Below are positions 7,250 through 63,533 of a stretch of DNA of 64,000 bases, in pieces. A program made the translations under genes and the position numbers. The stretch spans positions 1 through 64,000 of the forward strand of contig NZ_JACESE010000006.1 of assembly GCF_013911965.1 (NCBI RefSeq), written 5' to 3'. The stretch's first letter is position 1, and each line of letters opens with the position of its first letter. The DNA is from Phenylobacterium sp. GTDB taxonomy: Bacteria; Pseudomonadota; Alphaproteobacteria; Caulobacterales; Caulobacteraceae. The notes beneath the pieces were generated by a model. The model saw only the letters and a list, made by a program, of their open reading frames with translations. It did no database searches and had not been told where the DNA came from.

Positions 7250-7281
7250 GACTCAAGAGTCAGAAAATCAGTTCGCAGCCA

Positions 7282-7321
7282 CAAAAGAAAAAGCCCGCTG
7301 CGGGGGATAATCGCAGCGGGC
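7282..7321 (-). terminator. Strong intrinsic terminator reading leftwards
   Basis: On the minus strand a perfect 10-bp stem (GCCCGCTGCG with its complement, 9-base loop) is followed by TTTTTCTTTT. It ends any transcript that leaves hisG or starts in the gap after hisG. The other strand also has a short T-run, so it may work both ways. Confidence 0.85.
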
Positions 7322-7535
7322 CGGTTCTTTTGAGCTGTCGCTCTTATCAGACGGGCGTTTCCTCCCCGAAACGCCGGAGACTTCTGGACTTTGTGTCGCC
7401 GTCTTGTCTCTCGCCCATTGAGAAAACGGCAATTCCGGCCCCGAGTCAATCTCGCAAATCGGCGGAAAAGCGCAGTTTTCCAGCACTTTCCCGGAATCGT
7501 GCCGAATCCGGGGTCACGAAACCGCTATATTTGAA
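7322..7535 (-). ncRNA. Candidate small RNA or structured 3' leader between hisG and a terminator
   Basis: These 214 bases are visibly AT-richer than the flanking genes and hold no convincing gene; a 72-codon frame here looks like no family I know. They contain a perfect 8-bp hairpin (GGCGTTTC and complement) whose loop reads GGGGAG on the minus strand and CTCCCC on the plus strand. A second hairpin is formed by GGAAAA and TTTTCC. They end in the strong leftward terminator. This could be an independent sRNA, or a long hisG 3' end from which one is processed. No clear promoter was found. Confidence 0.35.
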
Positions 7536-53708: not shown

Positions 53709-53734
53709 GGAACCGGGGTCGCCTATGTCACGTT
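53709..53734 (+). promoter_or_regulatory. EcfG-type stress promoter of the DUF883 gene
   Basis: It reads GGAAC, 17 bases, CGTT, with the start codon 56 bases downstream. It marks the left edge of the stress island. Confidence 0.8.
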
Positions 53735-53790
53735 GAGGCACAGCTCGGCGCGGAGCGCGCGCCGGGACATCGAACCTCTGGAGACCCGAC

Positions 53791-54108
53791 ATGTCGAACG
53801 CTGCTGACCAAGCCGCGAGCGAAGCCAAGGCTGCCGCCGCCTCCGCCAACAACTCCGCCCACCTTCTGGCGGAGGATGCGCAACGCACTTTCCGCGACGC
53901 GGCCAAGCACTTCGAACGCGCGATCCAGGAAGGGGTCGAGCAGCTGCGCGCCCAGTCGCGCGCCTATGCCGACACCGCCAGCGAACAGTTCGAGGAGGCG
54001 CAGCGCTATGTCGTCGACAACGTCCGTGAGCGTCCGCTGGCCGCCACCGGCGTGGCCGTCGGCATCGGCGTGGTGATCGGCCTCCTGCTGGCTGGCGGCC
54101 GCCGTTGA
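53791..54108 (+). CDS. DUF883 (ElaB/YqjD-like) membrane-anchored protein
   Basis: The 105-residue protein has a long charged amphipathic helix, probably a coiled coil (AEDAQRTFRDAAKHFERAIQEG, then QFEEAQRYVVDN). A C-terminal membrane segment follows: RPLAATGVAVGIGVVIGLLLAGGRR. E. coli relatives ElaB and YqjD are RpoS-controlled, bind ribosomes or protect under stress. Here control is by EcfG through an exact promoter 56 bases upstream. GGAG before the ATG gives the ribosome site. Its stop overlaps the next gene's TTG start as TTGA. Confidence 0.88.
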   Translation: MSNAADQAASEAKAAAASANNSAHLLAEDAQRTFRDAAKHFERAIQEGVEQLRAQSRAYADTASEQFEEAQRYVVDNVRERPLAATGVAVGIGVVIGLLLAGGRR

Positions 54109-54500
54109 TCGAAAAGGCGCTCCTGGCCGTCATCGGCCTGGCCGCGATCTGGGCTCTGACCCTGCTGTGCGTCTGCGCAGCGGGGTTCGCTCTGTTCGCC
54201 GGTCTCGCCGGCCCGCTGGGCCCCGCCTGGGCTGCGGCGCTCGTGGCGCTGGTCGCCGGGCTGCTCCTGGCCATCGTGGTTCTCGCCTCCCGGAACAAGC
54301 CCGCGACGCATGCGCCGCCGGCCGAAGAGGAAAGCCTCTCGGCGCGCGCCTTCGACCTCGCCCGCCGCTATCCGGTGGCTGCGGGGGCCGCCTCGATCCT
54401 GGCCCTCGTTGCGGCCGGCACGGTCGTGGTGAAGAATCCGAAGGTGATCGCCACGGCCATCAGCGCCTTCCTGGCGGGCCGGAGCGCCGGTCACCGCTAG
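54105..54500 (+). CDS. Small two-to-three-helix membrane protein, partner of the DUF883 protein
   Basis: The 131-residue product has a hydrophobic hairpin at the N-terminus (LLAVIGLAAIWALTLLCVCAAGFALFAGL and a second helix to about residue 62). A charged cytoplasmic stretch follows, then a C-terminal helix (AAGAASILALVAAGTVV). It resembles the small phage-holin-superfamily/YqjE-type proteins that accompany DUF883 proteins. It starts at TTG overlapping the DUF883 stop by four bases, so it is translationally coupled and presumably stress-induced. The molecular role is unknown. Confidence 0.8.
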   Translation: MIEKALLAVIGLAAIWALTLLCVCAAGFALFAGLAGPLGPAWAAALVALVAGLLLAIVVLASRNKPATHAPPAEEESLSARAFDLARRYPVAAGAASILALVAAGTVVVKNPKVIATAISAFLAGRSAGHR

Positions 54501-54593
54501 GTCGCCGGCGGCCGATATTGACAAGGCTTTTCGTGGCGCGTCCGGTCCGGGCGCGCCCTTCCGTTTGACCCACTTCAGCGTATAGGAAACGCC

Positions 54594-55232
54594 ATGTTCA
54601 AACTTCCCGACCTGCCCTACGCCTATGAGGCGCTGTCGCCGACCATCTCGGCCCAGACCCTGCACTTCCACCACGACAAGCACCACGCCAAGTACGTGGA
54701 CGTGCTGAACGACCTCCTCAAGACGCAGGGCCGCAACCCGTCGAGCCTGGAAGAGCTGGTCAAGGAAATCGCCGGCGACCCGAGCCAGAAGAAGCTCTTC
54801 AACAACGCCGCCCAGACCTACAACCACACCTTCTTCTGGACCTGCATGATCGGCGAGAAGCAGGAGCCGACCGGCGACCTGGCGGCCGCCATCGAGCGCG
54901 ACTTCGGCGGCATGGCCGGCCTGAAGGAAGCCTTCGTCAACGAGTCGGTGAACCACTTCGCCTCGGGCTGGGGCTGGCTCGCCGCCGACGGCGACAAGCT
55001 GGTGGTCACCTCCACCCACGACGCCGACGACCTGCTGCCGACCAACCTGACGCCGCTGCTGACCTGCGACGTCTGGGAGCACGCCTACTATCTCGACCAC
55101 CAGAACGACCGGAAGGCGTTCGTCGAGGCCTGGTTCGACAACCTGCCGCACTGGAAGTTCGCCGGCGCGCAGTACGACGCCGCCCGCGGCAAGGGCCAGG
55201 CCTGGAAGCATCCCGCGCCCGTCGCCGGCTAA
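54594..55232 (+). CDS. sodB: Superoxide dismutase (Fe/Mn type, most like Fe)
   Basis: The 212-residue cytoplasmic enzyme disproportionates superoxide. Metal ligands are H26 (LHFHHDKHH), H78 (TYNHTFFW), D159 and H163 (CDVWEHAYY). The SodB-like FKLPDLPYAYEALSP start and WLAADGDKL segment point to iron. There is a ribosome site in TAGGAAACGCC. No exact EcfG motif precedes it, so it may have its own promoter; TTGACA occurs about 75 bases upstream without a clear -10. A strong terminator follows, which also holds the start region of the next gene's stress promoter. Confidence 0.96.
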   Translation: MFKLPDLPYAYEALSPTISAQTLHFHHDKHHAKYVDVLNDLLKTQGRNPSSLEELVKEIAGDPSQKKLFNNAAQTYNHTFFWTCMIGEKQEPTGDLAAAIERDFGGMAGLKEAFVNESVNHFASGWGWLAADGDKLVVTSTHDADDLLPTNLTPLLTCDVWEHAYYLDHQNDRKAFVEAWFDNLPHWKFAGAQYDAARGKGQAWKHPAPVAG

Positions 55233-55251
55233 GCTTTCTAAGGCCGAGCCG

Positions 55252-55276
55252 GGAACAGCCGAGTTCTGAAGACGTT
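55252..55276 (+). promoter_or_regulatory. EcfG-type stress promoter of the first DUF1328 gene
   Basis: It reads GGAAC, 16 bases, CGTT. Predicted start of transcription (about 55282) falls in the first bases of the sodB terminator stem. The DUF1328 start codon is 76 bases downstream. Confidence 0.8.
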
Positions 55277-55280
55277 GAAG

Positions 55281-55315
55281 TCCCGTGAGCCCCTGGCTCG
55301 CGGGATTTCTTTTTT
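55281..55315 (+). terminator. Intrinsic terminator of sodB
   Basis: An 11-bp stem with one G-T wobble (TCCCGTGAGCC arm) and a 3-base loop is followed by TTTCTTTTTT. It lies 48 bases after the sodB stop, immediately after the EcfG -10 element. Confidence 0.9.
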
Positions 55316-55352
55316 CCTCTGGCGAAGTCTTCGCCTGCAAAGGAGAGTTCAG

Positions 55353-55523
55353 ATGCTCAGTTGGGCCCTTGTCTTCCTGGTGGTCGCTCTGATCGCCGGT
55401 CTTCTTGGCTTCACTTCGATCGCCGGCGCCGCGGTCGGCGTCGCCAAGATCCTGTTCTTTGTCTTCCTGGTGCTGTTCGTGGTCTCGGCCATCATGCACA
55501 TGGTGCGTGGCCGCAGCGTCTAG
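55353..55523 (+). CDS. DUF1328 small membrane protein, copy 1
   Basis: The 56-residue product [20 protein letters not shown] and on consists of two membrane helices ending MVRGRSV. It matches the DUF1328 (YtjA-like) family, small stress-inducible inner-membrane proteins of unknown role. AAGGAGAG nine bases before the ATG is a strong ribosome site; a longer in-frame reading crosses the terminator and is rejected. It is driven by an EcfG promoter. A second copy lies 4 kb away under the same control. Confidence 0.9.
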
Positions 55524-55589
55524 AGCGGCGTTCCGCTGTCCCTCGGCGCGTTTCGACCGGCGGTCGGTCTTCAGCCTGTCGGAACGCGC

Positions 55590-56372
55590 CTAGCGGCGGC
55601 GGTCCAGGGACCAGGTCCGGTACGCCTCGAAGTGCGAGCCGGACCAGGCCTGGGCTCGCACGCGGATTTCCCGGTCGTCGACCTCGATGATGTTGAACCC
55701 GGCCGGCACGCCCCGCTCCCTCACCGACAGGGTGCCGCAGCCGATGGCGTAGGTCCGCTCGTCGGCGAAGGGATAGGGCAGGGCGAAGGGGGCGTGCACA
55801 TGCCCCGAGATGACGATGTCGACGCCCGCTTCGCTGAAGTCGCGCGCCGCGTCGGTTCCGCCCCACACCTTCCCCGTCATCGGCCCCCCGATCATCTCCG
55901 TCAGCGGGTGATGCAGCGCGACGACCCGGAAGCGGTCCGACGGCGCGCCGGCGAACCAGGAGACCGCCTGCCGCGCCTGGTCGCGGGAGATCTGGCCCTT
56001 CGACCAGTTCATGCGCGGCTGCGCCCCGCGGGCGGTGTTGAGGCCGTGGACCGCCACCCGCTCGTCCAGATGGGTCTGGGACCAGGCCGGGCCGATGATC
56101 CGTTCGTAGCGGGCGAAGGGCCGGAACAGCCGGTCGAACCAGGCGAGATAGGGCGCGTCGTGATTGCCCGGCGTCACCATCAAGGGCGTCGGCAGGCGGG
56201 CCAGCCAGTCCCGCGCCGCCTCGAGTTCGTGCACCTCGGCGAAGCGGGTGACGTCGCCGGTGACGATCGTCATGTCCGGGGGATCGTCGCACACCATGCG
56301 GGTCGCCGCCTCCACGGCGGCCGCGTTCTCGTCCCCGAAATGGACATCGGAAAACTGCACCAGTCGGATCAT
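55590..56372 (-). CDS. Metallophosphoesterase (class III phosphodiesterase/CpdA-like)
   Basis: The 260-residue cytoplasmic protein has the calcineurin-like blocks in order: FSDVHFGDEN, VTGDVTRFAEVHE, TPGNHDAP, VVALHHPL and SGHVHAPF. Similar proteins cleave cyclic nucleotides, UDP-diacylglucosamine or phospholipid head groups. The ATG overlaps the stop of the lipid-kinase-like gene by four bases (ATGA), so the two products are coupled. This suggests a lipid or phospho-signalling substrate rather than cAMP. It is the last gene of a three-gene unit headed by an EcfG promoter. Confidence 0.9.
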   Translation of the reverse strand: MIRLVQFSDVHFGDENAAAVEAATRMVCDDPPDMTIVTGDVTRFAEVHELEAARDWLARLPTPLMVTPGNHDAPYLAWFDRLFRPFARYERIIGPAWSQTHLDERVAVHGLNTARGAQPRMNWSKGQISRDQARQAVSWFAGAPSDRFRVVALHHPLTEMIGGPMTGKVWGGTDAARDFSEAGVDIVISGHVHAPFALPYPFADERTYAIGCGTLSVRERGVPAGFNIIEVDDREIRVRAQAWSGSHFEAYRTWSLDRRR

Positions 56373-57286
56373 TCGTCTTCGGGCCTCAGAACGGAGGCGG
56401 CCACGTCGCGTTCGGCGCCCGCAGGCTCGTCGGGCGGCGCGTAGATCCGCGCCACCTGGGGCAGGAAACTGACCTCGGCCAGCGAACCGAGCTGCACGGA
56501 TTCGCCGTCGAGCAGGGCCGGTATCCCGCTCGCCGCCCAGATGCGCGCCTGCCGGCAGCGCGCCAGATCGACGGAGGGATCGTCGCGCCAGTCGCCCACG
56601 GCGGCCGTCAGACCCAGACGCACCGCTTCCAACGCGCCGTGCAGGTCGAGGCCGGCGGCCTCCAGCGCCTGGTCGTCGTCGCTGAGCCGGCGGGAAGCCG
56701 TCGGGCACATGAAGACGACCGCCTCCCCCTTCTCGCGGGGGCCGTCGTCGATGATGTAGCGCAGCCGGGCCGAGAAGGCCCGACGCCAGGCGGTGCGGGC
56801 GCGTTGCAGGGCGAGGCCGGCCTTGCCCTCCCGCACGGCCTCCCGCGCCGGCGCCCAAAGGGCCGGCGCGCCGAAGATGGCGGCGACCAGGAAGAGACGC
56901 CCCTCGACCATTCCCCCGGCCAGGGGATGGGTTTCGCCCCTCTCGAGCAGGTCCTCGAACGCCGCCTGCCAGGGGCGACGGCCATAGATGGCGTGGGGCA
57001 GCATGTTCATCGTCCCTCCGGCCAGCGGCGCCAGGAGAGGGCCGTCGGCGCCGCAGAGCTCCGCCGCCCGACGCGCCGTGCCGTCGCCGGCGACGACCGC
57101 CAGCAGATCGGGGCCCGCATCGATGGCCGCCCGCAGGCACCGGTCCAGATCTCCCGTCTCGGAGGCGCAGACGCGGGCCTCCACGCCGAAACGGCTGACG
57201 ATGGCTTCAGCTTCGGCGGCGGCGTCGGGCGAAACGCTGCCGGACGCCAGGTTGATCACCACTTCGACCTTGCGGACCCCCCCCAC
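56369..57286 (-). CDS. Diacylglycerol kinase-family (lipid kinase-like) protein
   Basis: The 305-residue protein has the DAGK catalytic fold: VEVVINLASGSVSPDAA, then VVAGDGTARRAAEL and APLAGGTMNMLPHAIYG. The usual GGDGT is AGDGT here. The second domain includes RLFLVAAIFGAPALWAP. It probably phosphorylates a diacylglycerol, sphingoid or similar lipid at the inner membrane. GTG is the likely start, with GGAG five bases upstream; no ATG fits. It lies 13 bases after a small membrane-protein gene and overlaps the metallophosphatase gene. Confidence 0.85.
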   Translation of the reverse strand: MGGVRKVEVVINLASGSVSPDAAAEAEAIVSRFGVEARVCASETGDLDRCLRAAIDAGPDLLAVVAGDGTARRAAELCGADGPLLAPLAGGTMNMLPHAIYGRRPWQAAFEDLLERGETHPLAGGMVEGRLFLVAAIFGAPALWAPAREAVREGKAGLALQRARTAWRRAFSARLRYIIDDGPREKGEAVVFMCPTASRRLSDDDQALEAAGLDLHGALEAVRLGLTAAVGDWRDDPSVDLARCRQARIWAASGIPALLDGESVQLGSLAEVSFLPQVARIYAPPDEPAGAERDVAASVLRPEDE

Positions 57287-57299
57287 ACGCGGCTCCTGA

Positions 57300-57680
57300 C
57301 TAGAGGTTCTGATCGTCGCCGCGGTCGCCGGGCGCCGTCTGCAGGTCGCGACCCGCCTCGCGCACGGCGACGCCCGCCTCGCCGATCGCCTCGCGGACGA
57401 CCGGTTCGGCCTGGTCGGCGGCCACGGCCAGCTGCTGATCGACCACCTCGCCGCCGCGGCCGAACGAACCATACCACGCGGCCACGGCCAGCACCGCGCC
57501 GCCGGCCACGGCCACGACCCCGACCATCAGATTGCGCACCGGGTGGCTGCGCCGGACCCGCTCCTCGCGCCGGCCGTCGGCGCGGCCGCGCTCATAGGCG
57601 GCCTCCAGCGCGCGGTCGCGCGCCGGATCGACGTCGGCCGGGCGGGCCTCGGGGTTTCTACGGAATCGACGCCACATCAT
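57300..57680 (-). CDS. Single-pass membrane protein of unknown function, first gene of stress operon
   Basis: The 126-residue product has a basic, arginine-rich N-terminus (MMWRRFRRNPEARPADVDPARDR begins it). One membrane helix follows (LMVGVVAVAGGAVLAVAAWYG, about residues 51-72), then an acidic helical periplasmic or cytoplasmic tail. I recognise no family. GGAGCC before two adjacent ATGs gives the site. An exact EcfG promoter lies 33 bases upstream. Its position suggests it may anchor or regulate the lipid kinase encoded next. Confidence 0.8.
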   Translation of the reverse strand: MMWRRFRRNPEARPADVDPARDRALEAAYERGRADGRREERVRRSHPVRNLMVGVVAVAGGAVLAVAAWYGSFGRGGEVVDQQLAVAADQAEPVVREAIGEAGVAVREAGRDLQTAPGDRGDDQNL

Positions 57681-57713
57681 CTTCGGGCTCCATTCTCCTC
57701 ATGCGGCTAAGCT

Positions 57714-57738
57714 AACGACATGTCCGCATGGGGGTTCC
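57714..57738 (-). promoter_or_regulatory. EcfG-type stress promoter of the lipid kinase/metallophosphatase operon
   Basis: On the minus strand it reads GGAAC, 16 bases, CGTT, with the first start codon about 34 bases downstream. Its -35 is only 27 bases from the -35 of a divergent EcfG promoter. Confidence 0.82.
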
Positions 57739-57764
57739 GCCGCGGCGAAAGCTGCGCAATGGCG

Positions 57765-57790
57765 GGAACCCGACGGAAAGGCGGGGCGTT
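57765..57790 (+). promoter_or_regulatory. EcfG-type stress promoter of the glycine-zipper lipoprotein
   Basis: It reads GGAAC, 17 bases, CGTT, with the start codon 33 bases downstream. It is back to back with the promoter of the leftward operon. Confidence 0.82.
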
Positions 57791-57823
57791 TGGCCGGGGG
57801 CACAAGCTCAAGGAGAGCGCGAA

Positions 57824-58168
57824 ATGAACAAGTCTTGGATCGCTATCGCCGGGGCCGGCCTGCTGGCTGCCGCCTGCACCTCCACCGGCACGGTCGAGCG
57901 TAACGCCGCCGGCGGCGCGGCGCTGGGCGCCCTGGCCGGCGCCGTGATCGGCAACAATGTCGGCGACGGCGACGCGGGCACCGGCGCGGCCATCGGCGCG
58001 ATCGCCGGCGGCGCGGCGGGCGCCTACCGCGGCTGCCGCCAGGAAGGCGGCTGCGGCACTCAGGAGCCGAACCGCCGCCAGTATTATGACGAACGCGCGG
58101 GCCGCTACTACTTCTACGACCCGCAGTCCCAGCGCTACTACTGGGAGAATGGTCAGCCCCGCTACTGA
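57824..58168 (+). CDS. Glycine-zipper outer-membrane lipoprotein
   Basis: The 114-residue protein has a lipoprotein signal with lipobox LLAAAC. A glycine-zipper segment follows (AAGGAALGALAGAVIGNNVG and AAIGAIAGGAAGAYRG). The tail is rich in Tyr, Arg and Gln (RRQYYDERAGRYYFYDPQSQRYYW). It resembles the SlyB/YMGG-like zipper lipoproteins of the envelope. AAGGAGAG precedes the ATG. It is driven by an EcfG promoter and ends at its own terminator, so it is a monocistronic stress gene. Confidence 0.9.
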   Translation: MNKSWIAIAGAGLLAAACTSTGTVERNAAGGAALGALAGAVIGNNVGDGDAGTGAAIGAIAGGAAGAYRGCRQEGGCGTQEPNRRQYYDERAGRYYFYDPQSQRYYWENGQPRY

Positions 58169-58190
58169 GGCGGCCGACAATCGGATGTGC

Positions 58191-58223
58191 AAGGGCGGTC
58201 AGCACGGCGCTGGCCGCCCTTTT
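58191..58223 (+). terminator. Intrinsic terminator of the glycine-zipper lipoprotein gene
   Basis: An AAGGGCGG arm continues through one G-T pair into a CAGC/GCTG stem, 13 pairs in all with a 5-base loop. The stem runs into TTTT. It lies 22 bases after the stop codon. Confidence 0.85.
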
Positions 58224-58264
58224 CATGGCCGGAAGGCGGAACGAGGGACCGGAGGAGAGACCGA

Positions 58265-58720
58265 ATGGCGAGTTTTGCGACGGCGGGGCGGCTGACGCCC
58301 CTGGTGCTGGCCCTCGGCCTGGCGGGCTGCCAGAGCTGGGCCGAGATGCGCGGACGTCTGGTCGACGAGCCCGGCTGCGAACCGGTGCGGGCGGAGATCT
58401 ATTTCGAGCCGGATTCGGCGGCGATCGGGCCGGAGGCCCAGGCCCTGATCGCCGAGGCCGCGCGCCAGGCGGAGGGATGCCGCCTGCAGCATGTCGAAGT
58501 GCTGGGTCTGGCCGATGCGGCCGGCGCGCCCCAGGCCAATCTGGCGCTCTCCAAGGCGCGGGCCGAGGCGGTCACCGCGGCCCTGGCGGCCGAACGGCTG
58601 GCGGTGAGCGACGTGCGGCTGCTGGCCGCCGGCGAGGCCGGGGCGGTGACCCCGCAGGGCGAGCTGCAGCCCATGCGGCGTCGGGCGGAGATCGTCCTGC
58701 GCCTCGCCGACCCCGACTGA
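58265..58720 (+). CDS. OmpA-domain lipoprotein
   Basis: The 151-residue protein has a lipoprotein signal (lipobox LGLAGC, about residue 20) and a compact OmpA C-terminal domain: AEIYFEPDSAAIGPEAQALIAEAARQ, NLALSKARAEAVTAALAAERL and MRRRAEIVLRL. It likely binds peptidoglycan from the outer membrane. GGAGGAGAG gives a strong ribosome site. No EcfG motif of its own is seen, although it sits between stress genes; weak read-through from upstream is possible. Downstream lies an antisense-oriented candidate sRNA. Confidence 0.88.
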   Translation: MASFATAGRLTPLVLALGLAGCQSWAEMRGRLVDEPGCEPVRAEIYFEPDSAAIGPEAQALIAEAARQAEGCRLQHVEVLGLADAAGAPQANLALSKARAEAVTAALAAERLAVSDVRLLAAGEAGAVTPQGELQPMRRRAEIVLRLADPD

Positions 58721-58744
58721 GGGCCCGGGCGGAAGGCCAGGCGG

Positions 58745-58871
58745 AAAGAAAGACGGCGGGCCTTTTGGGGCCCGCCGAGTTTGCATCATCGAGAAAAGGG
58801 GGTGCGGAGACGGCAGACCGGCATAAGGGGGCCGGTCTCAAGTCGGGGGGGGCGTCGCCGCCTCCGCAAGG
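58745..58871 (-). ncRNA. Candidate GsrN-like stress sRNA with C-rich loops
   Basis: A near-consensus EcfG promoter (GGAAC, 16 bases, TGTT) points leftwards and predicts a start near 58871. The roughly 125-base transcript folds well. An outer 7-bp stem (58862-58868 with 58803-58809) encloses a run of eight C (58845-58852) and a 7-bp hairpin (58832-58838 with 58815-58821) whose loop reads CCCCCTTATG. A further CCCCC tract (58798-58802) follows, then a 9-bp terminator stem and TCTTTCTTT. Stress control, size, C-rich loops and terminator match what is known of GsrN of Caulobacter. Homology is inferred from these features, not shown. Confidence 0.6.
58754..58777 (-). terminator. Terminator hairpin of the candidate sRNA (also ends the OmpA lipoprotein gene)
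   Basis: A perfect 9-bp stem (CGGCGGGCC and complement, 6-base loop) is followed on the minus strand by TCTTTCTTTCC and on the plus strand only by AGTTTG. The stronger T-tract is on the minus strand. Confidence 0.75.
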
Positions 58872-58876
58872 ACATA

Positions 58877-58901
58877 AACACCGGCCGCCCCCCTGCGTTC
58901 C
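58877..58901 (-). promoter_or_regulatory. Near-consensus EcfG promoter of the candidate sRNA
   Basis: On the minus strand it reads GGAAC, 16 bases, TGTT. The -35 is exact and the -10 keeps the GTT core. It directs transcription away from the neighbouring small-protein gene and towards the C-rich structured segment. Confidence 0.5.
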
Positions 58902-58953
58902 CGCCGGCGCGAGATTTTTTGGGATTTCTCGCCCCAGACGTGGTCCTTGATTG

Positions 58954-58974
58954 AATTCGTTGGCGAATTTTTTT
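58954..58974 (+). terminator. Small terminator-like hairpin upstream of a stress promoter
   Basis: AATTCG and its complement form a 6-bp stem with loop TTGG, followed by seven T. It insulates the EcfG promoter 25 bases downstream from rightward transcription. The rest of the 58721-59076 gap holds the sRNA region and a GCGAGA/TCTCGC hairpin at about 58909-58932. Confidence 0.55.
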
Positions 58975-58998
58975 GTGGCCGCGCTTCCGGCCCTTGGG

Positions 58999-59023
58999 GG
59001 AACGCCCGCCCCGCCCCGACGTT
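58999..59023 (+). promoter_or_regulatory. EcfG-type stress promoter of two small membrane-protein genes
   Basis: It reads GGAAC, 16 bases, CGTT, with the next start codon 53 bases downstream. Confidence 0.8.
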
Positions 59024-59076
59024 CAGTTCCCGAGCGGGGCCATTCCCGCGACCTCCAGCCGGGACAGGGGCGAAGC

Positions 59077-59289
59077 ATGATCCGAGGCTATATGACGGCC
59101 CATGGCGGCCTGGCCTATGTGGAAGGCCCCACCCGGCGCCAGAGGCTGGCGCGGCGTCGCCTGACGGCCGTCACCTCCATCGCCGCCATGGCCTCGGCGG
59201 CGGCCCTGCTGGGCGCGATGGCGCCTGCGGAACGGCCCCCGCCGGAGGCGCCGCCCGCGCCGAGCCTTCTGAGCTATTTCACCTTCTAG
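59077..59289 (+). CDS. 70-residue membrane protein of unknown function
   Basis: The product starts MIRGYMTAHGGLAYVEGPTR, has an arginine-rich stretch (RRQRLARRRL) and one membrane helix (TSIAAMASAAALLGAMA). A proline-rich tail ends LLSYFTF. I recognise no family. The site is AGGGGCGAAG. An exact EcfG promoter lies 53 bases upstream, so it is a predicted general stress protein. The following gene starts 19 bases after its stop and is probably co-transcribed. Confidence 0.7.
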   Translation: MIRGYMTAHGGLAYVEGPTRRQRLARRRLTAVTSIAAMASAAALLGAMAPAERPPPEAPPAPSLLSYFTF

Positions 59290-59308
59290 AAGAAAGGAGA
59301 GCGCCGTC

Positions 59309-59611
59309 ATGGCCGACTCCAACGATCCGCATCCCAAGGTCCCGGCCACGCCCGCCCGCCAGGGCGCCCTGGGCAAGCCCGTCCTGGCGATCCTGGTGGT
59401 GTCCGTCACCCTGGCCTTCCTCGGCCTGCTCGGCAGCTGGCTTCTGCGCTCCGACGATCTCGCCGAGACCGCGCCCCACGCCGCCCAGCAGCCGTCGGAC
59501 GCGGCGGTGTTCGACGAGCCCGAACCCTCGCCGATCGAGCCCACCATGGCCGACAAGCGCCAGGAGCAGGTCCCCACCCCGGCCAATCCGACGCGGCCCG
59601 ACGCCCCCTGA
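59309..59611 (+). CDS. 100-residue single-pass membrane protein of unknown function
   Basis: The product has a soluble N-terminus (MADSNDPHPKVPATPARQG) and one membrane helix (PVLAILVVSVTLAFLGLLGSWLL, about residues 24-46). A low-complexity acidic and proline-rich tail follows, probably periplasmic. No family is recognised. AAAGGAGAG upstream is a strong ribosome site. It is the second gene after an EcfG promoter and ends at a good terminator. Confidence 0.78.
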   Translation: MADSNDPHPKVPATPARQGALGKPVLAILVVSVTLAFLGLLGSWLLRSDDLAETAPHAAQQPSDAAVFDEPEPSPIEPTMADKRQEQVPTPANPTRPDAP

Positions 59612-59638
59612 TCGAAGCCTGCACGCCGACACGAAAGA

Positions 59639-59663
59639 GGCCGCCGGAGACCGGCGGCCTTTT
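59639..59663 (+). terminator. Intrinsic terminator of the two-gene small membrane-protein unit
   Basis: A perfect 9-bp stem (GGCCGCCGG and complement) with loop AGA is followed by TTTTC. It lies 27 bases after the stop codon. Confidence 0.88.
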
Positions 59664-59698
59664 CTATTGTCCGGACCGCCGGGACGGGATGTCCGAGG

Positions 59699-59872
59699 TC
59701 AGACCACCGACTGGCCGCGCAACGCGCGGACGACGAAGCTGGCGACGAGCAGGACCAGGAAGACCACGAAGAGGATCTTGGCGATGGTGGCGGCGAGACC
59801 CGCCAGGCCCATGAAGCCGAGATAGCCCGCGACCAAGGCGAGAACCGCAAAGACGATCGCCCAACCGAGCAT
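59699..59872 (-). CDS. DUF1328 small membrane protein, copy 2
   Basis: The 57-residue product begins [20 protein letters not shown] and has two membrane helices ending RALRGQSVV. It is a clear paralogue of the copy 4 kb upstream. GAAGGAG gives the ribosome site; a longer in-frame reading runs through the phyR terminator and is rejected. It lies downstream of phyR on the same strand but has its own EcfG promoter between the phyR stop and the phyR terminator. A 7-bp leader hairpin (59893-59909) precedes the ribosome site. Confidence 0.9.
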
Positions 59873-59916
59873 GCCGACGCTCCTTCGATCTGGGCGGAGT
59901 TGCTCCGCCGCGCATG

Positions 59917-59947
59917 AAAAGGGCGGCCGAGCTTGGCCCGGCCGCCC
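59917..59947 (-). terminator. Intrinsic terminator of phyR
   Basis: On the minus strand an 8-bp GC stem (GGGCGGCC and complement, 11-base loop) is followed by TTTTC. It lies 37 bases after the phyR stop, immediately after the EcfG -10 of the second DUF1328 gene. Confidence 0.82.
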
Positions 59948-59952
59948 CTTCA

Positions 59953-59977
59953 AACGTCTGGCGAGGTCGCCCGTTCC
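59953..59977 (-). promoter_or_regulatory. EcfG-type stress promoter of the second DUF1328 gene
   Basis: On the minus strand it reads GGAAC, 16 bases, CGTT. Predicted transcription start (about 59947) coincides with the first base of the phyR terminator stem. The start codon is about 80 bases downstream. Confidence 0.8.
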
Positions 59978-59983
59978 GGCGGC

Positions 59984-60784
59984 TCAGGCCGCGGCCTTGG
60001 CCGCCCGTCGCGGATGGAAGAACAGCGCCTGGCCGATGGCCGCCTTCACCGTTTCCGGCTGGAAGGGCTTGGTGATCAGGAAGGTCGGCTCGGGCCGCTC
60101 CCCGGTCAGGAGGCGCTCGGGGAAGGCGGTGATGAAGATCACCGGCACGTCGTGGTCGCTGAGGATGTCCTTGACCGCGTCGATGCCCGAGGAGCCGTCC
60201 GCCAGCTGGATGTCGGCCAGCACCAGGCCCGGCCGGTTGCGGCTGACCGCCTCCACCGCCTCGGTGCGGGTGGCGGCGATGTCGACCACCGTATGGCCGA
60301 GCTCCTTCACCAGCGCCTCGATGTCGGCGGCGATCACCGGCTCGTCCTCGATGATCAGCACATCGGTGGCCAGTTCGGCGTCGATCTCGGCCTGGGCCTC
60401 GGCGATCAGGGCCTCGACCTCCTCGAAGCTGGCGCCGAGGATCTGGGCCGTCTCGCTGGGGGTGAAGCCCTCCAGGGCCGTCAGCAGGAAGGCCTGGCGC
60501 GAGCGCGGGGCGATCCGCATGAGGCGGGAATTGGCGTCTTCGCCGCCGGCGTCCTCGCCGGCGGGCGCTTCCAGTTGCGCGCCGCTCGAGAGCCAGATGG
60601 CGTGAAAGACATGATAGAGCGCCACACGGGGCGTCAGATTGGCCTCCAGGACCCGTTCGCCCGCGGCAAGCGCCTCAAGCGCGACGCGGACATAGTGGTC
60701 CCCCGTCGTCTGATCTCCAGTGAGCGCGCGCGCATAGCGCCGGACATAAGGCAGATGCGGCGCCAATCGGGCTAGAAGACTCAC
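59984..60784 (-). CDS. phyR: General stress response anti-anti-sigma regulator PhyR
   Basis: PhyR is the response regulator that, once phosphorylated, pulls the anti-sigma factor NepR off EcfG. The 266-residue protein has an N-terminal EcfG-like sigma mimic: MSLLARLAPHLPYVRRYARALTGDQTTGDHYV, then FLLTALEGFTPSETAQILG. A C-terminal receiver begins DVLIIEDEPVIAADIEAL. The phospho-acceptor is D191 in LVLADIQLADGSSG, with ITAFPERLL and the lysine in LITKPF. It is divergent from nepR-ecfG-phyK, the usual arrangement in this group. An exact EcfG promoter gives positive feedback. Confidence 0.97.
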   Translation of the reverse strand: MSLLARLAPHLPYVRRYARALTGDQTTGDHYVRVALEALAAGERVLEANLTPRVALYHVFHAIWLSSGAQLEAPAGEDAGGEDANSRLMRIAPRSRQAFLLTALEGFTPSETAQILGASFEEVEALIAEAQAEIDAELATDVLIIEDEPVIAADIEALVKELGHTVVDIAATRTEAVEAVSRNRPGLVLADIQLADGSSGIDAVKDILSDHDVPVIFITAFPERLLTGERPEPTFLITKPFQPETVKAAIGQALFFHPRRAAKAAA

Positions 60785-60859
60785 GAACCCCTCCCGTTCA
60801 GGACAACGATCGACGCGCGCCGGCGTCCAAGCGAGCGCGCGAGATCAACTAAGACCGAA

Positions 60860-60884
60860 AACGCCATTTGTGGGAACCGGTTCC
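60860..60884 (-). promoter_or_regulatory. EcfG-type stress promoter of phyR
   Basis: On the minus strand it reads GGAAC, 16 bases, CGTT; the phyR start codon is about 75 bases downstream. Its -35 lies in the right half of an 18-bp palindrome. Confidence 0.85.
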
Positions 60885-60887
60885 CAC
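60870..60887. repeat. 18-bp perfect palindrome in the phyR-nepR gap
   Basis: GTGGGAACCGGTTCCCAC is its own complement and holds two opposed GGAAC boxes. One is the phyR -35. The other faces nepR but has only TGTT at 17 bases, so it is at best a weak promoter. The palindrome could also be an operator. Confidence 0.6.
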
Positions 60888-60927
60888 CGGGCGGTGTTTT
60901 CGTCATCCTGACAACAGGTTGCATAAT

Positions 60928-60952
60928 GGAACCCGGCAGGGGGCGGGGCGTT
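60928..60952 (+). promoter_or_regulatory. EcfG-type stress promoter of nepR-ecfG
   Basis: It reads GGAAC, 16 bases, CGTT, with the nepR start codon 59 bases downstream. It implies autoregulation of the sigma factor, as known in other alphaproteobacteria. Confidence 0.85.
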
Positions 60953-61011
60953 TGAGCGATCAGAATGACAATGCGAGGGGGCGATCTCCGCGTGAGCGGA
61001 GCGCCGAAGGT

Positions 61012-61209
61012 ATGATCGAACAGCAGCAGCAGCCACAGAAACCGCCGGGTCCCGAAAACCGTTCGGCGGCGCTCGACGAGGCGCGGTTGCGCCAGCAGGC
61101 CATCGGGGTGCGCCTCCGTCAGATGTTCGACGAGGTGGTCAACGAGCCGGTCCCGGATGAGTTTCTCGACATCCTGCGCCGCGCCGACAAGTCGGCGGAG
61201 GGCAAGTAA
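61012..61209 (+). CDS. nepR: Anti-sigma factor NepR
   Basis: NepR binds and inhibits EcfG until phosphorylated PhyR captures it. The 65-residue protein has a disordered Gln/Pro-rich start and the family core LRQQAIGVRLRQMFDEVVNEPVPDEFLDILRRAD. The start MIEQQQQPQK has GAAGG close upstream; longer in-frame readings cross the promoter and are rejected. Its stop overlaps the ecfG ATG (TAATG), coupling the pair. Confidence 0.95.
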   Translation: MIEQQQQPQKPPGPENRSAALDEARLRQQAIGVRLRQMFDEVVNEPVPDEFLDILRRADKSAEGK

Positions 61210-61805
61210 TGGTCGATGCTGACGCCCGAGACGCCGCCACGGACGAAGCGTTCAAGAAGGAGCTGGTCGGTCTGATCCCGCACCTTCGCGCCTTTGCGCG
61301 GACCCTGTGCGGCGACGCCACCGCCGCCGACGACCTGGCCCAGGACGCCATGATGAAGGCCTGGGATGCGCGCGCCAGCTTCCAGATGGGGACCAACATG
61401 AAGGCCTGGACCTTCATGATCCTGCGCAATCAGTTCTATTCCGAGAAGCGTCGCTCGTGGCGCCAGAGCCAGCTCGACCAGGAAGCGGCCGAGCGGACCC
61501 TGGTGGCCGTGGACGATCCGGAGGCGCCCGTCGCCCTGGACGAACTGCGGCTCAGCCTGATCATGCTGCCGCCCGAGCAGCGCGAGGCGCTGATCCTGGT
61601 CGGCGCCGGCGGCTTCGCCTACGAGGAAGCCGCCGAGATCTGCGGCGTGGCCGTCGGCACGGTGAAGAGCCGCGTCAGCCGGGCGCGGCGCGCCCTGCAG
61701 GCCATCCTCGACGAAGGCGCGTACGAACGGGACGGCGGCGCGGCGGGCGACGCCATGCGCTCCATCCTTGCAGACGCCGAGCGTCTCAGCTCCACCGTTC
61801 GCTGA
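61209..61805 (+). CDS. ecfG: General stress ECF sigma factor EcfG (SigT-like)
   Basis: The 198-residue sigma factor has region 2 (LIPHLRAFARTLCGDATAADDLAQDAMMKAWDARASFQ, with WTFMILRNQFYSEKRR). Region 4 has LIMLPPEQREALILVGAGGFAYEEAAEICGVAVGTVKSRVSRARRAL. It belongs to the EcfG group, which recognises GGAAC and CGTT boxes. Many such boxes surround this locus. It lies between nepR, which overlaps it, and the kinase gene 18 bases downstream. Confidence 0.96.
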   Translation: MVDADARDAATDEAFKKELVGLIPHLRAFARTLCGDATAADDLAQDAMMKAWDARASFQMGTNMKAWTFMILRNQFYSEKRRSWRQSQLDQEAAERTLVAVDDPEAPVALDELRLSLIMLPPEQREALILVGAGGFAYEEAAEICGVAVGTVKSRVSRARRALQAILDEGAYERDGGAAGDAMRSILADAERLSSTVR

Positions 61806-61823
61806 AGCCTGAGGGCCTGGGCG

Positions 61824-63533
61824 ATGACCGGGGGAGCCTGGGCCTCTCTGAGCACCATCCGGGTGCGGCTGATCGCGGCCCTGGCGGCCGCGCTCCTGCC
61901 CGTGCTCGTCCTGGGCGCGGTGCAGACGGCGGTGGCCTTCAATCGGGAAGCCGCCCTTCTGCGCGAAAACCTGGGTTCGGCGGCCGAGCGAAGCGCCGCC
62001 GACGCCCGGGCCCGGATGGAGTCGGCCGACATCCTGCTGGAGACCTTGGCCCCGGGCTCGGTGGGCTTCCAGTGCGCCCAGCGCCTGGCCCAGGTGACCG
62101 AGCGCATACCCGGCTATGACAACCTGATCCGGTTCGACCGCTCGGGACGCGTGGCCTGTGCGGCCGGCGACGTGCCGGCCGATCCGGGACGGCGGGAGCG
62201 GCCCTGGTTCCAGCAGCTGCGGGCCGGCGAGGACCTCGTCATCACCCGCGATCCCGGCGCCGCCTATTCGGCGGAGCCGGCCCTGATGGCCGTGGTCCGG
62301 GCGGAAACCGCCCGCGGCGACTTCGACGGCGCCCTGGCGGCGATCATTCCGCTCTCCAGCCTGCGGCCCGACCGGGCGGTGGCCCTGCCGCGGGGATCGG
62401 AGGTGGCCCTGCTCGACGGCGAAGGGCGCTATCTGAGCATGACGAACGCCCAGGCTTTCGCGCCGCCCCCGCGCGACTGGCTGGAGCGGACGCGGGCGCA
62501 GGGCTCCTTCGTCTGGTACGCGCGGGCCGGGGGCGAGCGACGGGTGCACATCGCCGCGCCGCTGGTGGGCGAAAGCCTCTTCGTGATGCTGTCGGCGCGC
62601 TCTCCCGGCCTGTTCTCCTGGGCGCGGCTCAACCCGCTGACCGCGCTCGTCTTCCCGCTGCTCACCTTCGCCCTGGCCCTGCTCACCGTCTTCGTGGCGG
62701 CCGAACGGGTGGTCGTGCGGTGGATCGTCTATCTGCAGCGCATCGCCGCCCTCTACGCCCGCGGCCGGCTCAGCGTCAGGCCGGTGCGCGCCGACGACAT
62801 GCCCGCCGAGATCCGCGACCTGGCCGAGACGCTCGAGGACATGGCCGACGCCATCGTCGGCCGCGACGCCTCCCTGCGCGACTCCCTGGCGCAGAAGGAC
62901 GGGCTGATGCGCGAGATCCACCACCGGGTGAAGAACAACCTGCAGGTCATCTCCAGCCTGCTGTCGATGCAGCAGCGGGCGCTCACCGACCCCGGCGCCC
63001 GGGCGGCCATGTCCGACACGCGGCAGCGCATCTCCGCCCTCGCCCTGGTCTATCGCGCCCTCTACCAGGGGCCGGACCTGAAACGCGTGGACCTGCGGCC
63101 CTTCCTCGAGGAGCTGACGGCGCAGCTGGTGGCCGGCGACGCGGCGCATGGGCCGGCGGTGCGGACGGAGCTGCACGCCGACGCCCTGGTCATCGATCCG
63201 GATCGCCTCGCGCCGCTCGCCCTCTTCGCCGTCGAGGCGATCACCAACGCCCAGAAGCACGCCTTCGCCGAGCGCGGCGGGCTGCTGAGCGTGAATTTCC
63301 AGGTGCAGGACGGCGAGGGAATCCTGGAGATTTCCGACGACGGTCAGCCCACCGACGAGGCGCTGAACGCCAGCGGGGTCGGCCGCACCCTGATGACGGC
63401 CTTCGCCCGGCAGCTTCGCGGCCGCAACGAGGTCCTCCGCAACGCCTCGGGAGGCATGACCGTGCGCCTCGTCTTCCCCATCCCCGCGTCGGAGCACGCC
63501 GCGCCGCACGCCGGGAACCAGGCCGCAGCCTGA
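61824..63533 (+). CDS. phyK: Membrane sensor histidine kinase, PhyK-like
   Basis: The 569-residue kinase has an N-terminal membrane helix (LIAALAAALLPVLVLGAVQTAVA), then a periplasmic Cache-like sensor of about 230 residues. A second helix (LTALVFPLLTFALALLTVFVAA, about residues 273-294) and a HAMP-like linker follow. The HisKA2 box has the phospho-acceptor H367 in EIHHRVKNNLQVISSLLSMQ. The ATPase domain has VEAITNAQKHAF and SGVGRTLMTAFARQL. In Caulobacter the kinase beside phyR-nepR-sigT is PhyK, the activator of PhyR, and position and family here match. The stimulus is unknown. Confidence 0.92.
   Translation: MTGGAWASLSTIRVRLIAALAAALLPVLVLGAVQTAVAFNREAALLRENLGSAAERSAADARARMESADILLETLAPGSVGFQCAQRLAQVTERIPGYDNLIRFDRSGRVACAAGDVPADPGRRERPWFQQLRAGEDLVITRDPGAAYSAEPALMAVVRAETARGDFDGALAAIIPLSSLRPDRAVALPRGSEVALLDGEGRYLSMTNAQAFAPPPRDWLERTRAQGSFVWYARAGGERRVHIAAPLVGESLFVMLSARSPGLFSWARLNPLTALVFPLLTFALALLTVFVAAERVVVRWIVYLQRIAALYARGRLSVRPVRADDMPAEIRDLAETLEDMADAIVGRDASLRDSLAQKDGLMREIHHRVKNNLQVISSLLSMQQRALTDPGARAAMSDTRQRISALALVYRALYQGPDLKRVDLRPFLEELTAQLVAGDAAHGPAVRTELHADALVIDPDRLAPLALFAVEAITNAQKHAFAERGGLLSVNFQVQDGEGILEISDDGQPTDEALNASGVGRTLMTAFARQLRGRNEVLRNASGGMTVRLVFPIPASEHAAPHAGNQAAA

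Follow-up and report, generated by a model that had tools for sequence, protein, structure and literature searches.

The closest described relative of the RNA examined here is GsrN of Caulobacter crescentus (ccna_R0081). In the sections of PMC5869019 drawn on here, the RNA is numbered up to position 106, its cleavage ends are placed at C53 and T54, and cleavage yields a stable 5′ isoform of 51–54 nt, with Hfq affecting the full-length form; a passage of a later paper (PMC11005374) states that no involvement of Hfq in the activity of GsrN has been observed. The same sections of PMC5869019 name katG, with the site GUCGGGG, as the one proven target in C. crescentus, and the predicted target sites in Table 1 include UCAAGUCGGGG and GUCGGGGGGCGUC. 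They also place GsrN homologs near phyR-nepR-ecfG in Caulobacteraceae, including Phenylobacterium, and describe GsrN-like RNAs in Rhizobiaceae that were proposed from expression, position, and promoter.

We analysed a stretch of 64,000 nucleotides of Phenylobacterium DNA (the window), in which a minus-strand segment closely resembles this RNA. As far as those sections describe C. crescentus GsrN, both have an EcfG/sigT promoter, a C-rich 5′ loop with complementarity to target sites of the same kind, a 3′ exposed region, and a terminator within about 100 to 120 nt. In contrast, six C are reported in the C. crescentus loop and eight occur in the window RNA, the C. crescentus gene lies far from the general stress response locus while that of the window adjoins phyR, and the katG site GUCGGGG is absent from the katG leader of the window genome. 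The Rhizobiaceae RNAs, set beside the window RNA by the paper's description only, likewise combine an EcfG site, proximity to phyR, and an exposed C-rich 5′ loop.

The Rfam covariance model RF01529 (CC3552) matches the minus strand at 58865–58754 over its full length (model positions 1–106) with 75.1 bits, above the gathering score of 50 (E 3.8e-10), and no second match was found in the genome. The window RNA differs from the model by an apical part that is 4 bases longer and by small indels in the linker. Neither Rfam name was found in the GsrN literature searched; we take RF01529 to be GsrN because it has 106 positions, because C53-U54 of the model falls, by our own count, at the same place as the published cleavage ends, and because its loop is complementary to the published sites. 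Our own model R1, built from 44 sequences that include the gsrN of the window, scores 102.2 bits at 58865–58749. We thus read the segment, with a probability of about 96%, as gsrN, the general stress response sRNA of Caulobacteraceae, which EcfG would control and whose loop would act on mRNA sites. The preliminary description had proposed a GsrN-like RNA and a covariance-model search as its check; the family match, the promoter type, the loop, the architecture, and the neighbouring genes all bear this identity out. The sRNA is of an already published kind and had been reported from the genus before; a real regulator was recognised from the anatomy of the raw sequence alone.

Table 1. Features of the gsrN locus and its surroundings (window coordinates).
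Feature	Position	Strand	Remarks
EcfG-type promoter GGAAC-N16-TGTT	58877..58901	−	sequence motif
gsrN (RF01529) transcript	58746..58865	−	predicted 5′ end 58865; 3′ end in T-rich tail
Outer stem, 5′ arm	58857..58865	−	pairs with 58814–58806; helix 1
5′ recognition loop GACGCCCCCCCCGACUUGAG	58837..58856	−	C8 at 58852–58845; complementary to published GsrN target sites
Inner hairpin	58816..58837	−	stem conserved (helix 2); apical loop CCCCUUAU specific to this genome
Outer stem, 3′ arm	58806..58814	−	covariation; putative cleavage near 58809/58808
Single-stranded linker	58783..58802	−	C5 58802–58798; UCUCGAUGAUGC 58794–58783
Intrinsic terminator	58746..58777	−	stem 58777–58769 with 58762–58754, tail UCUUUCUU; helix 3
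OmpA-family lipoprotein, convergent neighbour	58265..58720	+	PF00691, 47.4 bits
phyR, general stress response regulator	59984..60784	− (gsrN strand)	PF22029, PF22233, PF00072
nepR anti-sigma factor	60868..61209	+	PF18557; open frame whose actual start is probably more internal
ecfG/sigT-type sigma factor	61209..61805	+	PF04542, PF08281

On the minus strand, the promoter is separated by eleven bases, counted on the sequence, from the predicted 5′ end of the RNA, which reads GGAGGCGGCGACGCCCCCCCCGACUUGAGACCGGCCCCCUUAUGCCGGUCUGCCGUCUCCGCACCCCCUUUUCUCGAUGAUGCAAACUCGGCGGGCCCCAAAAGGCCCGCCG and runs into a T-rich tail. The fold of the 123-base strand has an energy of −58.6 kcal/mol (z −6.08), and none of 200 shuffles is as stable. 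In order, the predicted fold comprises the outer stem, the unpaired C8, the inner hairpin, an unpaired linker with the C5 tract, and a terminator hairpin of 9 pairs followed by UCUUUCUU; the last G of the loop GACGCCCCCCCCGACUUGAG pairs within the inner hairpin. The previously claimed length of about 125 bases comes near the roughly 120 bases predicted (58865–58746). By analogy with C53/T54, the RNA may be cleaved near 58809/58808. Mechanically called frames of at least 80 aa do cross the segment (58225–58950 on the plus strand, 58223–58789 and 58572–59078 on the minus strand). By eye, however, the alignment of relatives shows indels across the segment that are not multiples of three, with the C-run varying from 6 to 10 and the apical loops from 3 to 8 bases. 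These non-triplet indels speak against a protein, in line with the earlier statement that no protein frame explains the segment.

Two sources supplied the relatives: the 30 highest-scoring RF01529 matches among 299 family genomes, 208 of which have a match, and 69 named contigs in which a loop pattern occurs. Four pattern loci (L049 Cellulomonas, L058 Shimia, L072 Bradyrhizobium, and L090 Thermoguttaceae) were taken as chance matches, since they have no promoter, and dropped, as were the window, which duplicates L001, identical sequences, and L030, which lacks a regex match. This left 80 distinct RNAs, the window's included, of which 44 at 90% identity form alignment A1, in which the 5′ end of L082 is misaligned. 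Over the three helices of these 44 sequences, 97.7% of cells are paired and 15 of 24 pairs show double-sided changes, and none of 500 shuffles reaches this pairing and covariation. Double changes occur in all three helices; in the terminator (helix 3), 93.7% of cells are paired, and 7 of the 8 pairs counted show them. This covariation support for every gsrN helix is a useful by-product of the analysis.

While the outer stem, the C8 run, the C5 tract, and the terminator of the preliminary description are all present in the fold, its CCCCC hairpin loop exists here without being a family feature: it occurs in 1 of the 80 distinct sequences, the window's own, the commonest inner-hairpin loops being GAAA (19/80) and GCAA (10/80). 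Likewise, a loss of C-tracts and terminator in close relatives, named there as a refuting observation, was not seen for the 5′ C-tract or the terminator, both of which are kept, and applies to the private CCCCC loop. The invariance of the recognition loop is partly produced by selection, because L032–L100 were chosen by the loop pattern and L002–L031 are the best model scores; the weaker members L142–L145 have altered loops. The linker UCUCGAUGAUGC is also conserved, with TCTCGATGATGC in 64 of the 80 sequences, and may correspond to the second exposed region described in the sections of PMC5869019 cited above.

The promoter played no part in choosing the relatives. GGAAC-N16/17-NGTT occupies the same position in all 79 distinct upstream regions, the window's included (L063, with 41 bases upstream, was left out), compared with 10 of 79,000 letter shuffles, and 61 of the 79 carry the stricter YGTT form. 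In 19 of 20 same-genus matches fetched by coordinates, not all of them new relative to the named loci, the promoter lies 10 or 11 bases from the RNA start; L199 is the one that missed the search pattern. The GGAAC-N16-TGTT promoter first noted from the sequence holds at 58901–58877. Within the window, 13 EcfG-type sites (GGAAC-N16/17-YGTT) compare with a shuffle mean of 0.80, and 10 of them cluster at 53709–60952 around the general stress response genes. Sites in this cluster precede, among others, a glycine-zipper protein, a DUF1328 protein, phyR, and nepR. Divergently from gsrN, at 58999–59289 (+), another EcfG-type promoter precedes a 70-aa frame (59077–59289), which has no Pfam match and a tblastn match in 3 of 65 named loci (1e-5).

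The genomic setting agrees with a stress-response RNA. PhyR, NepR, EcfG, and a HisKA_2 kinase together span 59984–63533, and the end of phyR lies 1.1 kb from the gsrN 5′ end. PhyR is found beside gsrN in 51 of the 65 named loci, always on the gsrN strand and with its centre 0.5 to 1.8 kb away; among the 14 loci without it, the upstream sequence is shorter than 1.3 kb in 11 and exceeds 2 kb in L040, L057, and L062. The window PhyR shares 86–91% identity with that of named Phenylobacterium loci, 84–86% with three labelled Caulobacter, and 78–88% with Brevundimonas, where the highest values come from cut matches; these identities point to Phenylobacterium as the genus of the window. The OmpA-family lipoprotein, correctly named beforehand as the neighbour, has a tblastn match in 30 of the 65 loci.

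Across the 299 family genomes, the presence of gsrN follows PhyR: 206 have both, 2 gsrN only, 35 PhyR only, and 56 neither, counts that depend on the cut-offs (RF01529 E 0.001, PhyR 1e-40) and ignore kinship. Hence 35 of 241 PhyR-bearing genomes lack an RF01529 match, which, like the three loci with long upstream sequence but no PhyR, weighs against the gsrN reading. For the 73 genomes of the window's genus the corresponding numbers are 55, 0, 4, and 14. This tight link is a further useful by-product. The 14 same-genus genomes that match neither PhyR (1e-40) nor gsrN, among them G051, G067, G079, and G084, suggest that the general stress response was lost in part of the genus. R1 had matches in 3 genomes of the class set of 385 and in 45 of the order set of 249, all in the window's own family, and found no gsrN outside Caulobacteraceae in these two sets, for which the filters were stricter than for small sets. 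Applied to 24 genomes, it left the 20 without an RF01529 match unmatched and matched the 4 whose RF01529 match is weak. In genus g3, four genomes (G151, G155, G159, G204) have two RF01529 matches each, perhaps a duplication of gsrN. In G181, a genome of the window's genus, an EcfG-type promoter downstream of phyR is followed by an apparent 3′ half of gsrN (L159, about 2313–2430 of the reoriented locus), comprising linker and terminator without the C-rich loop.

Could gsrN be a relic in this species, still transcribed but stripped of its function? We consider this very improbable, for although the window's RF01529 score of 75.1 is below every match among the matches listed (the last at 75.3), its inner hairpin loop is unusual, and G181 apparently retains just the 3′ half, the window has every part of the gene, from promoter through loop, stems, and linker to terminator, in intact form, and PhyR, NepR, and EcfG are present. 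Least probable of all is a chance GC-rich fold or a mere bidirectional terminator of the OmpA gene, whose convergent end lies just upstream of a hairpin that could serve both strands, a reading already refuted by the covariance model match at E 3.8e-10, the double changes in all three helices, and the conserved promoter.

As gsrN, the RNA, whose promoter sequence, structure, and conservation are shown above, would be transcribed from this EcfG promoter. PhyR would free EcfG from NepR, and EcfG would then read GGAAC-N16-TGTT to give the RNA of 120 bases. The outer stem would present the unpaired loop GACGCCCCCCCCGACUUGAG, which, on the model of C. crescentus GsrN as described in the cited sections, could pair with G-rich mRNA sites and change their translation or stability, while linker and terminator would make up the 3′ half.

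The katG target mentioned in the preliminary description is not supported in this genome, although the test is weak. The window genome has one katG match, and GUCGGGG was not found in the 300 bases before it. UCAAGUC, at −86 of this katG, is a complement of a length also reached in 7% of shuffles, and neither motif occurs in nine other katG upstream regions (five from the same genus, four from another). GTCGGGG is present in the katG leader of L114, which comes from a genus that we assign to Caulobacter, since the RNAs of that genus are similar to the one of L051, a Caulobacter-labelled contig. A duplex-energy test on katG leaders gave a lowest p of 0.12 in the 25 rows with a start; five rows (L125, L126, L128, L129, L130) are invalid as no start codon was found, and the starts of L104 and L108 are doubtful. 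The test has little power, since it misses even the GUCGGGG-bearing L114 (p 0.27), and its katG result therefore amounts to an absence of evidence. In a set of 99 family genomes, both gsrN and katG occur in 36, gsrN only in 20, katG only in 15, and neither in 28; the two genes co-occur above chance (Fisher p 0.005), which argues against a clean split, and a katG match is missing in 20 of the 56 gsrN-bearing genomes. In the window genome, katG is probably not a direct target, or not by the same site.

Since the Phenylobacterium loop is kept nearly letter for letter, the katG site is missing, and many gsrN-bearing genomes show no katG match, the conserved task of GsrN may be other than katG. We put forward this reading tentatively and at rather less than even odds: pairing with katG would be an elaboration of Caulobacter, and ancient targets would lie elsewhere, perhaps behind the still undefined hyperosmotic protection. 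The missing site and the missing katG matches are a sign, and another useful by-product, that the best-studied target alone does not explain the conservation of gsrN. One candidate, a 12-base perfect loop complement (CTCAAGTCGGGG) about 134 bases upstream of a gene for a small, probably secreted protein (L134/L137), was rejected because it is missing from all 4 orthologs that a search of 39 other genomes of the genus yielded. The 10-mer CAAGTCGGGG shows no enrichment in the genome, with 6 occurrences, one of them the gsrN antisense strand, whereas the reversed control occurs 20 times. When one mismatch is allowed, TCAAGTCGGG has 7 matches in the window, where 4.57 are expected. A separate sRNA match lies at 7279–7412 (−), where RF01527 (CrfA), a carbon-starvation sRNA of Caulobacter according to the title of a reference, exceeds its gathering score of 38 with 64.3 bits.
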